DNA of 64,000 nucleotides, taken from Mesorhizobium loti (GTDB lineage Bacteria > Pseudomonadota > Alphaproteobacteria > Rhizobiales > Rhizobiaceae). Below, piece by piece: positions 29,470 to 32,139 of the stretch. How positions within the stretch are numbered: the stretch's first letter is position 1; each line of letters starts with the position of its first letter. A model generated the notes under the pieces. That model searched no databases, was not told where the DNA came from, and saw nothing but the letters and a program-made list of their open reading frames with translations. The translations under genes and the position numbers were made by a program. The stretch covers positions 1,240,001-1,304,000 of the forward strand of contig AP017605.1 of assembly GCA_002356515.1 (NCBI GenBank), given 5' to 3'.

Positions 29470-32139
29470 ATGTCCGGCTTTTCGGAAGACATGCCCTTTT
29501 TCGACGAACCCAATGCGCGGCCCACGGCCCCGTCGGGTATTGCCGCGCGCGCCATGGCTGCCCGCGGCGGCCAGAACAGCGCGCCCGATTATCTGAAGGG
29601 ACTCAACCCCGAACAAAGGCTGGCGGTGGAGACCACCGAGGGCCCGGTTCTGGTGCTGGCCGGGGCCGGCACCGGCAAGACCCGTGTGCTCACCACCCGC
29701 ATCGCCCACATCCTCGCCACCGGCAAGGCCTTCCCGTCGCAGATCCTGGCCGTCACCTTCACCAACAAGGCCGCGCGCGAGATGAAGCAGCGCATCGGCA
29801 TCCTGATCGGTGAAGGCAATGTCGAGGGCATGCCGTGGCTCGGCACCTTCCACTCGATCGGCGTGAAGCTGTTGCGCCGTCATGCCGAACTTGCCGGCTT
29901 GCGTTCCGACTTCACCATCCTCGACACCGACGATGTCATCAGGCTGATCAAGCAGCTGATCCAGGCCGAGGGCCTCGACGACAAGCGCTGGCCGGCCAAG
30001 CAGTTCGCGCAGATGATCGACGGCTGGAAAAACAAGGGCCAAGGCCCGGCCGATATCGCCGAGGGCGACGCGCGCAGCTTCGCCAACGGCAAGGGCCGCG
30101 AGCTCTACAAGGCCTATCAGGAGCGTCTGCAGACGCTGAACGCCTGCGATTTCGGCGACCTGCTCTGCCACCCGATCCGCATCTTCCGCGCCAATCCGGA
30201 CGTGCTGAAGGACTATCACCGGCGCTTCAAATACATCCTTGTCGACGAATACCAGGACACCAACACCGCCCAATACATGTGGCTGCGGCTTTTGGCGCAA
30301 AGACCTACCTCCCCCTCGATGGGGGAGGTCGCGCCGCGGAGCGGCGCGGGTGGGGGTGGCAGCGCCGGCGCCAGTCACCCCTCCCCGTCGCTTCGCGACG
30401 ACCCTCCCCATCAAGGGGAGGGTAAAGCGCGATCGACCGAAACTCGCGCCACTGTCAACATCTGCTGCGTCGGCGATGACGACCAGTCGATCTATGGCTG
30501 GCGCGGCGCCGAGGTCGACAACATCCTGCGCTTCGACAAGGATTTCCCGGGCGCCACCATCATCCGGCTGGAGCGCAACTACCGCTCCACCGCGCACATC
30601 CTTGGCGCCGCCTCCCACCTCATCGCCCACAATGAAGGCCGTTTCGGCAAGACGCTGTTCACCGACCGCAACGATCCCGAAGACGGCAAGGTCAATGTCC
30701 ACGCCGCCTGGGATTCCGAGGAGGAAGCCCGCGCCATCGGCGAGACCATCGAGGCCTATCAGCGCCAGAAGCACAATCTCAACGACATGGCGATCCTGGT
30801 GCGCGCGTCTTTCCAGATGCGCGCCTTCGAGGATCGCTTCATCACGCTCGGCCTCAACTACCGCGTCATCGGCGGCCCGCGCTTCTACGAGCGCATGGAA
30901 ATCCGTGACGCGCTGGCCTTCTTCCGTGTCGTCGCCAACAGTGGCGACGACCTCGCCTTCGAGCGCATCGTCAATGTGCCGAAGCGCGGGCTGGGCGAAG
31001 CCACCATCCGCCAGATCCACGACACGGCGCGTGCGCTGCGCATCCCGATGCTGGAGGCCGCTGGCAACCTTGCCGAAAGCGACGAGTTGAAGCCGAAACC
31101 GCGCGCGGCGCTGCGCGAAGTCGCCGCCAACTTCGAACGCTGGCAGAAGGCGCTGGAAACCAAGCCGCACACCGAGCTCGCCGAGACCATTCTCGAGGAG
31201 AGCGGCTATACGGACATGTGGAAGAACGACCGTTCGGCCGAAGCGCCGGGCCGGCTGGAAAACCTCAAGGAACTGATCCGCTCGATGGAGGAGTACGAGT
31301 CGCTGCGCTCCTTCCTCGAACACGTGGCGCTGGTCATGGATGCCGAGCAGAATGCCGGACAGGACGCCGTCTCCATCATGACGCTGCATTCAGCCAAAGG
31401 CCTCGAATTCGAGACGGTTTTTCTCCCCGGCTGGGAGGAAGGCCTGTTTCCCCACCAGCGCGCGCTTGACGAAGGCGGCCGCTCCGGGCTGGAGGAAGAA
31501 CGGCGCCTCGCCTATGTCGGCCTGACGCGGGCCAAGAAGAACCTGCATCTGTGGTTCGTCTCCAACCGCCTCATCCATGGCCTCTGGCAATCGACCATCC
31601 CGTCGCGCTTCCTCGAAGAACTGCCGGAATCCCATGTCGAGATCGCCGAAAGCGGCAATTCCTATGGCGGCTACGGCAATCCCTATGGCGGCGGCTCCTT
31701 CGCATCGGGCCGTGGCGGCCGGCAGAATCCGTATGGCGCCTCGCGCTTCGACAATGTCGGCGCCAACACCGAAAAATCCGGCGCCTTCTCCAACACCTAT
31801 TCGACGCCCGGCTGGCAGCGCGCGCAGGCCAACCGCACCGAAGCGACCGACCGCAACTGGGGCACGCGCTCCGGCCATCAGGTCGAGCGCATCGGCTATG
31901 GCGAAACCGACAGCGGCTACGGCGCCGGCCGCACAAGCGTAAAGGGCCGCACCATCGATGGCGAGCTGGTCGCCAAATCCGTCTCCGACACGCCCTCCGC
32001 CTTCAGCGTCGGCGACCGCGTCTTCCACCAGAAATTCGGCAACGGCAACATCTCCGCCATCGAAGGCAACAAGCTGACCATCGACTTCGACAAGGCCGGC
32101 CAGAAACGCGTGCTGGACGGGTTTGTGGCTGCGGTGTGA
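29470..32139 (+). CDS. uvrD: ATP-dependent DNA helicase UvrD/PcrA with an inserted segment
   Basis: An 889-residue superfamily 1A helicase for nucleotide excision and mismatch repair. Motif I GAGTGKTRV is near residue 70, motif II VDEYQDTN near 258, motif III GDDDQSIYGWRGA near 335, then ERNYRS, TLHSAKGLEF and the VGLTRAKKNL motif, with a Gly-rich tail. Between motifs II and III there are about 45 extra residues; E. coli UvrD has about 30 residues in all there. These come from an in-frame palindromic element (30307-30423). GGGGGAG abuts the ATG at 29470, so ATG 29500 may also be used. Confidence 0.93.
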   Translation: MSGFSEDMPFFDEPNARPTAPSGIAARAMAARGGQNSAPDYLKGLNPEQRLAVETTEGPVLVLAGAGTGKTRVLTTRIAHILATGKAFPSQILAVTFTNKAAREMKQRIGILIGEGNVEGMPWLGTFHSIGVKLLRRHAELAGLRSDFTILDTDDVIRLIKQLIQAEGLDDKRWPAKQFAQMIDGWKNKGQGPADIAEGDARSFANGKGRELYKAYQERLQTLNACDFGDLLCHPIRIFRANPDVLKDYHRRFKYILVDEYQDTNTAQYMWLRLLAQRPTSPSMGEVAPRSGAGGGGSAGASHPSPSLRDDPPHQGEGKARSTETRATVNICCVGDDDQSIYGWRGAEVDNILRFDKDFPGATIIRLERNYRSTAHILGAASHLIAHNEGRFGKTLFTDRNDPEDGKVNVHAAWDSEEEARAIGETIEAYQRQKHNLNDMAILVRASFQMRAFEDRFITLGLNYRVIGGPRFYERMEIRDALAFFRVVANSGDDLAFERIVNVPKRGLGEATIRQIHDTARALRIPMLEAAGNLAESDELKPKPRAALREVAANFERWQKALETKPHTELAETILEESGYTDMWKNDRSAEAPGRLENLKELIRSMEEYESLRSFLEHVALVMDAEQNAGQDAVSIMTLHSAKGLEFETVFLPGWEEGLFPHQRALDEGGRSGLEEERRLAYVGLTRAKKNLHLWFVSNRLIHGLWQSTIPSRFLEELPESHVEIAESGNSYGGYGNPYGGGSFASGRGGRQNPYGASRFDNVGANTEKSGAFSNTYSTPGWQRAQANRTEATDRNWGTRSGHQVERIGYGETDSGYGAGRTSVKGRTIDGELVAKSVSDTPSAFSVGDRVFHQKFGNGNISAIEGNKLTIDFDKAGQKRVLDGFVAAV
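30307..30423. repeat. Intragenic palindromic element inside uvrD (117 bp, 39 codons)
   Basis: The element has dyad symmetry about position 30365. End hairpins are ACCTCCCCC/GGGGGAGGT (30307-30329) and ACCCTCCCC/GGGGAGGGT (30401-30423). Inner hairpins are CGCGCCGC/GCGGCGCG (30330-30348) and CGTCGC/GCGACG (30386-30400). The centre is GCGCCGGCGC. Its length is a multiple of three and no stop is introduced in the uvrD frame. It resembles rhizobial intergenic mosaic elements in build and Rickettsia palindromic elements in being translated. Confidence 0.85.

Follow-up and report, generated by a model that had tools for sequence, protein, structure and literature searches.

Palindromic repeats that lie in frame inside bacterial genes have been described before, and a close parallel to the ones reported here comes from Rickettsia. 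Rickettsia palindromic elements (RPEs) are dispersed repeats of 105-146 bp, members of which sit in frame inside conserved genes; in the passages drawn on here, a review describes an RPE-bearing guanylate kinase as translated and active, and in-frame cases are also given for enterobacteria and Neisseria (PMC2229807, PMC10969869). In this study, we analyzed a stretch of 64,000 nucleotides from Mesorhizobium loti (GenBank assembly GCA_002356515.1, contig AP017605.1, positions 1,240,001 to 1,304,000 of the forward strand), hereafter the window, in which a 117-bp palindromic repeat, here called the A element, lies within the helicase gene uvrD. Like RPEs, the Mesorhizobium repeats are dispersed, palindromic with stable stem-loops, and in frame inside conserved genes, although one of the loop types described below, D, lacks the dispersal. 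They differ from RPEs in the group of hosts and in that several families share the loop of one gene throughout the genus, with turnover. The likeness is one of behavior, and we do not claim membership in any of the RPE families of Rickettsia.

Rhizobia have palindromic repeats of their own, among them RIME (rhizobial intergenic mosaic elements) and the Sm repeats of Sinorhizobium, which measure roughly 100 bp. Both are mentioned in the relevant passages of PMC2780559. The likeness of our repeats to RIMEs is by description (palindromic, rhizobial); RIMEs are by name intergenic, whereas the Mesorhizobium copies are partly genic. Another related kind is the repetitive extragenic palindromic (REP) sequence. 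Passages of PMC3733652 report intragenic REPs in several species, many of them in replication and repair genes, with the UvrD/REP helicase named, and describe two Xanthomonas species that carry different REPs at about the same site in recB. Bradyrhizobium was included in that survey; its main text does not contain the word Mesorhizobium, and the passages concerned give neither species nor position for the UvrD REPs. Those REPs resemble our repeats in being palindromic and in occurring inside genes, repair genes among them, but they are 20-40 bp long and tagged with GTAG or CGTC (PMC3733652, same passages), whereas the 117-bp A element has no such end tag: it contains neither GTAG nor CTAC, and CGTC occurs only internally, at position 80. 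According to further excerpts, in-frame copies in host open reading frames (ORFs) are known for other small repeats, namely the miniature inverted-repeat transposable elements (MITEs) ERIC, YPAL, and Correia (PMC2229807), and for PARCEL repeats, which are translated repeated domains, mostly in membrane proteins (PMC2996958); all of these are other sequences in other hosts. That palindromic repeats occur in frame inside genes, UvrD included, is known already from the passages of PMC3733652, so the surprise expressed in the original prediction, a note on the window made from its letters alone, was partly anticipated. We found no report in the open-licence literature of in-frame palindromic elements in Mesorhizobium or other rhizobia. 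As far as our literature searches show, the new aspects are the presence of several families in one loop, their turnover, the list of affected core genes in one genome, and the slow change of the repeat arms.

Our results point to the insertion of a dispersed palindromic repeat into uvrD, where it is most likely translated as an unstructured loop, and we regard this as the best explanation and a highly probable one. From the sequences it is clear that several kinds of repeat are dispersed in Mesorhizobium, that five families occupy the same UvrD loop in different genomes, and that nearly all of these loops keep the frame. The original prediction had placed a 117-bp palindromic element of 39 in-frame codons between helicase motifs II and III, and its coordinates were confirmed, the stretch from 30307 to 30423 giving TSPSMGEVAPRSGAGGGGSAGASHPSPSLRDDPPHQGEG when read in frame. 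Folded as single-stranded DNA, the element reached -50 kcal/mol compared with a mean of -30.7 for shuffled sequences (z -6.66; 0 of 200 shuffles were as low), and its RNA fold deviated from shuffles to a similar extent (z -6.84). Four hairpins, described earlier as symmetric, were recovered by folding, with a fifth, central stem in addition. The ends of the element are inverted repeats of 26 nt with 81% complementarity, which resemble the terminal inverted repeats of MITEs, and the element as a whole is self-inverse (73% over 107 nt). Five of its six frames are free of stops, against a mean of 3.7 for shuffles, so its composition makes the element easy to translate.

A search of the genome with the 117-bp unit had been set beforehand as a test of whether the element is a repeat, and it proved to be one. 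Across the 8.45 Mb of the window's own genome, held in four contigs, A gave 28 matches on both strands, which correspond to about 19 distinct places after merging by hand. One copy lies within the window, and the closest full-length copy elsewhere in that genome is 83% identical. The other families were also dispersed. B had 148 matches in the own genome and was present in all six genomes searched; C was likewise present in six of six, with partial matches only in the own genome; E was found in three of three genomes, with 25 to 89 matches; and F had 78 and 37 matches in two of three genomes and none in the window's.

To place the window's loop among its relatives, we draw on loops from 117 of 119 Mesorhizobium genomes together with 80 named loci, two sets whose genomes overlap, for a total of 197 rows and 141 distinct loops (genomes and loci bear our own G and L numbers). 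The two genomes without a readable loop were G116, where the gene is split between two contigs, and G067, where the anchors were not found together. Sequence motifs defined the loop types; for 13 of the 139 distinct rows the type was set manually, and L048 (B) and L217 (D) were typed by eye. Type D (AEGRKPDRAS...) was found in 65 of the 117 genomes, with one short D-like form besides, followed by C (SPLEGEVPAKRAEGV...) in 21, B (ISPLEGEMSGRTEGG...) in 20, and A in six; two genomes had a nearly empty loop of 14 residues, E and F occurred once each, and a further type, G, was seen at a single named locus (L136). The commonest loop, D, is GC-rich with hairpins. The original prediction would have been undermined by an unrelated loop of the same size in all close relatives. 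The loop of most relatives does differ, frequently at about the same size, yet 49 of 117 genomes hold multicopy palindromic repeats (A, B, C, E, or F) in that place. Loop length ranged from 14 to 204 residues, the longest (L209) being probably a poly-C assembly artifact. Assemblies seem to break at the palindromic loop, as indicated by that poly-C run (L209, G001), by Ns (L214, G018), and by the gene that is divided between contigs (L224/L225, G116).

The frame was retained almost without exception. Loops were in frame and stop-free in 195 of 197 rows and in 139 of the 141 distinct loops, including shortened ones that resemble internal deletions (e.g., L085 and L164). The two exceptions were L214, which contains Ns, and L211, a C-type loop with a length not divisible by three. 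At L211 (G100), the loop of 203 nt splits the gene, which could be a pseudogene or a sequencing error. As a control, 32 B copies outside the four B-bearing genes had lengths of 0, 1, and 2 modulo 3 in 12, 12, and 8 cases, with the ends of these copies set by BLAST. From this retention of frame, we infer that the insert is translated as an unstructured loop.

The gene around the insert has the features of a UvrD/PcrA-type helicase. Pfam PF00580 (UvrD-helicase) covers residues 45-279 and PF13361 (UvrD_C) residues 365-695, and the sequences DEYQDTN and VGDDDQ, which we take to be helicase motifs II and III, are intact. Counted on the alignment, the spacing between these motifs is 68 residues in the window's UvrD and 19 in that of E. 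coli, lower than the 30 or so given earlier as typical. The estimate that about 45 residues had been added was close: near-empty relatives have a UvrD of 845-846 aa and a loop of 14 residues compared with 58 in the window, a difference of 44. With AlphaFold2, residues 281-328 had predicted local distance difference test (pLDDT) scores below 50, with block means for the loop of 25-37 and no secondary structure, between a helix at 266-276 and a strand at 331-335. The loop is thus predicted to be disordered while the helicase motifs are intact, and presumably it sits on domain 1A, remote from the ATP site. Together with the dispersal of the repeat, these observations support the earlier proposal that a palindromic repeat was inserted and tolerated in a loop of UvrD.

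The same families occur in frame in other genes. In the own genome, A lies in coding frames at four of the 19 places, UvrD included: two copies are in the N-terminal region of FtsY (L002 and L003) and one is in an unidentified ORF of 705 aa without a Pfam or NCBIfam match. For B, four of 41 examined places were in frame in recognized genes. In CobG, TIGR02435 matched at full length around the insert, and in CobN, TIGR02257 aligned to residues 5-470 and NF008973 resumed at residue 560. In an ABC transporter ATPase (L349:1221-2267, plus strand), B lies inside the nucleotide-binding domain and the Pfam ABC_tran match falls into two stretches, while in the E2 component of pyruvate dehydrogenase it occupies the linker between the lipoyl and E3-binding domains. 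The 40 own-genome B regions were picked nonrandomly from the best-listed matches. An ORF spanned the element at 15 of 42 places, four of which were judged to be interrupted genes; in L341 and L355 the element is located ahead of a gene or at its start, and the others look noncoding by eye. Elsewhere, C was found in E2 linkers of G022 (domains checked) and G057 (sequence only), in XdhC (G057 and G084), in a hydantoinase B domain (G106), and in an N-terminal extension of UvrB in G106 whose true start is unsure. Because E2 linkers (L232, L240, and L245) carry B in the window's genome but C in two further ones, UvrD is not the sole gene to have received several families.

Loop types have turned over repeatedly. 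In a gene tree built from the 139 distinct flanking sequences of uvrD after removal of the loop (2145 columns; L048 and L217 lacked the flank needed), the distribution of loop types requires 47 changes, of which the starred branches force at least 7 (A), 16 (B), 17 (C), and 32 (D). Sister flanks may bear different loops, as with L062 (C) and L140 (D), which are 97.8% identical over 1500 nt, L063 (A) and L150 (C) at 96.1%, and L060 (empty) and L045 (D) at 96.5%. Matches were obtained in 98 genomes of the bacterial family, two of them Mesorhizobium; 68 of the other 96 were covered, one for each genus. Among these 68 other genera, loops were short in 26 and long in 42 by the cutoff of our script, and their length was divisible by three in every case. 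Several of the long loops resemble other palindromic repeats by eye, and one genus has an A-like element between different linkers (L258, with a loop identical to that of L124).

Synonymous (pS) and nonsynonymous (pN) divergence set the repeat apart from its surroundings. Among eight carriers of A with six distinct loops (L214, with its Ns, and L124, a different allele, were omitted), the 117-nt element had a pS of 0.034 and a pN of 0.023, while pS was 0.323 in the 60 nt on its 5' side and 0.258 in the 45 nt on its 3' side. In the element, 7 of 117 columns vary, compared with 12 of 57 linker columns (Fisher p 0.004); for third codon positions the figures are 3 of 39 and 9 of 19 (p 0.001). The pattern held for repeat arms compared with linkers in A (pS 0.048 and 0.222), C (0.029 and 0.425), and B (0.086 and 0.377), where the tests for B and C used a single loop length, i.e., 6 of 25 B rows and 10 of 23 C rows. 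The arms had pN/pS ratios of 0.33 (A), 0.83 (C), and 0.51 (B). For the A element the ratio was 0.96 against the window copy and 0.68 over all pairs; seven further genomic copies gave 0.77. Whole loops including linkers had values of 0.34 to 0.69 (groups with at least three pairs), compared with 0.04 to 0.31 in the flanks, and the codons beside the loop were under strong purifying selection (pN 0.000-0.007). The picture for the protein is mixed: constraint on the peptide is far weaker than on the helicase but is not absent, and the arms are slow to change as DNA. Slow change in the arms is best supported for A. The A copies in uvrD of G000, G066, G088, G092, and G099 are 97-99% identical to that of the window, whereas full-length copies outside uvrD in those five genomes reach 78-83% at best (partial matches, 89-90%), and variants of the element track variants of the linkers by eye; this argues for descent in place. 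On the same grounds we discarded the idea that an active master had supplied each A copy in uvrD as a separate, fresh insertion. For B, the slow arms could reflect sameness throughout the family, since many other B arms in these genomes are 93-100% identical.

Base pairing within the stems was also retained. All 308 cells scored in 11 B loops kept their pairing; in five of them, which fall at two pairs, both partners had changed, and in no cell had one partner changed alone. In 13 C loops, one of which (L135) is from another genus and probably a separate insertion, 98.6% of the 356 cells still pair; both partners had changed four times and a single partner twice, and pairing was lost in five cells. 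Some of these differences may have been brought in by separate inserted copies instead of arising in place. Given a weakly constrained peptide and arms that change several-fold more slowly than adjacent codons, it may be the nucleic acid that is kept; the gap in rates may stem from selection at the nucleic-acid level, from repair templated by the hairpins, or from conversion. We tentatively raise the more far-reaching idea, which we think has the odds against it, that the UvrD loop is a genus-wide landing pad in which palindromic DNA is retained for its structure as nucleic acid while the peptide is weakly constrained. It draws on a pS of 0.03-0.09 in arms versus 0.22-0.43 in linkers and on the fact that both variable stem pairs of B are compensated in the 11 loops. 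If it were true, a coding gene would carry a conserved hairpin that is not there for the protein, a cassette traded between lineages and selected or repaired as DNA or RNA.

Several observations weigh against a dispersed repeat having been inserted into uvrD and translated there. The AlphaFold2 model as a whole is weak (mean pLDDT 58; predicted template modeling score, 0.38), and most B places in the own genome (all but 4 of 41) interrupt no recognized gene. D is of low copy, with one or two matches in five of six genomes and one to three in four of five with a second query, counts that include the uvrD copy where the genome has one; D may therefore be an ancient element or one of low copy number, or it may not be mobile DNA at all. 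Inspection of occupied and near-empty loops revealed no clean target-site duplication and no true preinsertion site. Apart from a 17-nt match (E 0.004), no copy of A, B, or C lies beside the two Y1_Tnp genes of the own genome, which are IS200-like and about 2.3 kb apart (L377 and L378; 6053343 and 6055611). Lastly, A, B, and C have arms in common (A and C 83% over about 50 nt, B and C 77-78%), across a 55-nt stretch E and F agree at 82%, and the G loop of L136 resembles both C and E. By sequence likeness the families form two related groups, A-B-C and E-F. Separately, we considered a cognate REP-associated tyrosine transposase (RAYT) for the repeats, a candidate that is unsupported because the own genome's Y1_Tnp genes, that short match aside, are not flanked by A, B, or C.

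Given the shared arms, the likeness of E to F, and the resemblance of G to both groups, what look like new insertions could be products of conversion or mosaicism among the repeats. These similarities give weight to an alternative that we consider unlikely but worth serious attention, in which one or a few ancient insertions were later rewritten into A, B, C, E, and F by ectopic gene conversion or recombination. The A and B loops also have part of their 3' linker in common (RS..ETRATV), and long loops are widespread outside the genus. Yet the boundaries and linkers of A, B, C, and D differ by several codons, type E does not match A or C at an E value of 0.01, short loops are found in 26 of the 68 other genera, and some repeat-like loops stand between other linkers. 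A different kind of objection is that the inserts are adaptive, i.e., that they alter the activity or regulation of UvrD and that loops are selected, as passages of PMC3733652 speculate for REP-tagged repair genes. Repair genes do recur (UvrD and the N-terminal extension of UvrB in G106), turnover is high at 47 changes on the tree, and the pN/pS of whole loops implies some constraint. We judge this improbable nonetheless, as pN/pS of the A element (0.96 and 0.68) is well above that of the flanks and like that of other genome copies, different peptides are interchangeable, and in-frame copies also occur in CobN, CobG, FtsY, pyruvate dehydrogenase E2, and the ABC transporter ATPase.

The two remaining alternatives fare worse. 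If the loop were ordinary, fast-evolving, disordered host sequence, its likeness to repeats would be a matter of chance, a view that suits the D loops, which are the majority and of low copy. For A, B, C, E, and F it is refuted: in at least one genome each of these loop queries matched other places with E values of 1e-20 or lower, and four of the types (A, B, C, and E) are palindromes along almost all of their sequence. We consider it very improbable overall. Slightly less credible still is the proposal that the segment is absent from the protein through ribosome bypass or removal from the RNA, or that uvrD is broken. The one genome with a loop length that is not a multiple of three (G100) is in line with it, but frame retention in nearly all rows, when control copies do not keep their length modulo 3, as well as intact motifs and the strong purifying selection on codons next to the loop speak strongly to the contrary.

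Insertion of dispersed repeats with translation of the survivors suggests the following course of events. Repeats would insert widely, and selection would purge the copies that break proteins. Those that survive would lie in linkers and loops, where a disordered peptide rich in Pro, Ser, and Gly does little harm, and the UvrD loop would be one such spot. Recombination could then replace or shorten resident loops, or pass them from one lineage to another, and nearly all such changes would span a multiple of three bases. The peptide would be weakly constrained, and the arms would be kept as nucleic acid through structural constraint, hairpin-templated repair, or conversion. The locus would in this way amount to a natural replicate experiment in how selfish DNA becomes protein, with one loop of one gene in more than 100 genomes, several families, and dozens of replacements. 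Three questions can be put to it directly: are palindromic inserts filler that the protein tolerates, do they change the working of a repair helicase, and is it as nucleic acid that the hairpins are kept? The locus also carries a warning that repeat-derived segments in rhizobial core genes (UvrD, FtsY, CobN, CobG, and others) can break assemblies and may confuse gene trees.

Table 1. Features of the uvrD gene and its palindromic insert, in positions of the window
Feature	Position	Strand	Basis
uvrD/pcrA-type ATP-dependent DNA helicase gene, 889 aa	29470..32139	+	ORF; Pfam and PDB matches to UvrD/PcrA
DEYQDTN codons, motif II, residues 259-265	30244..30264	+	Translation; alignment with E. coli UvrD
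Whole variable loop, 58 residues (AQRPT...VNICC), from the helix after motif II to the motif III strand	30295..30468	+	Loop alignment; AlphaFold2
117-bp palindromic repeat, family A, 39 codons, residues 280-318	30307..30423	+	ORF; inverted ends; genome copies; folding
Hairpin 1, 9-bp stem	30307..30329	+	Inverted repeats; DNA folding
Hairpin 2, 8-bp stem	30330..30348	+	Inverted repeats; DNA folding
Central stem joining the two half-elements	30353..30381	+	DNA folding
Hairpin 4, 6-bp stem	30386..30400	+	DNA folding
Hairpin 5, 9-bp stem, mirrors hairpin 1	30401..30423	+	Inverted repeats; DNA folding
Host linker 3' of the element, KARSTETRATVNICC	30424..30468	+	pS 0.258 (8 A carriers), near the gene's synonymous divergence
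VGDDDQ codons, motif III, residues 334-339	30469..30486	+	Translation; alignment with E. coli UvrD

A scan of the gene against Rfam returned a single subthreshold match, located outside the element and taken as chance. In G057, a D-like stretch lies in frame in a primase-like ORF (D5_N, DUF5906; L252:511-2412, minus strand). Among plasmid records, B-like sequences occur at 528 places in 147 records, 64 of them from Sinorhizobium, and A-like sequences at 14 places in 11 records.

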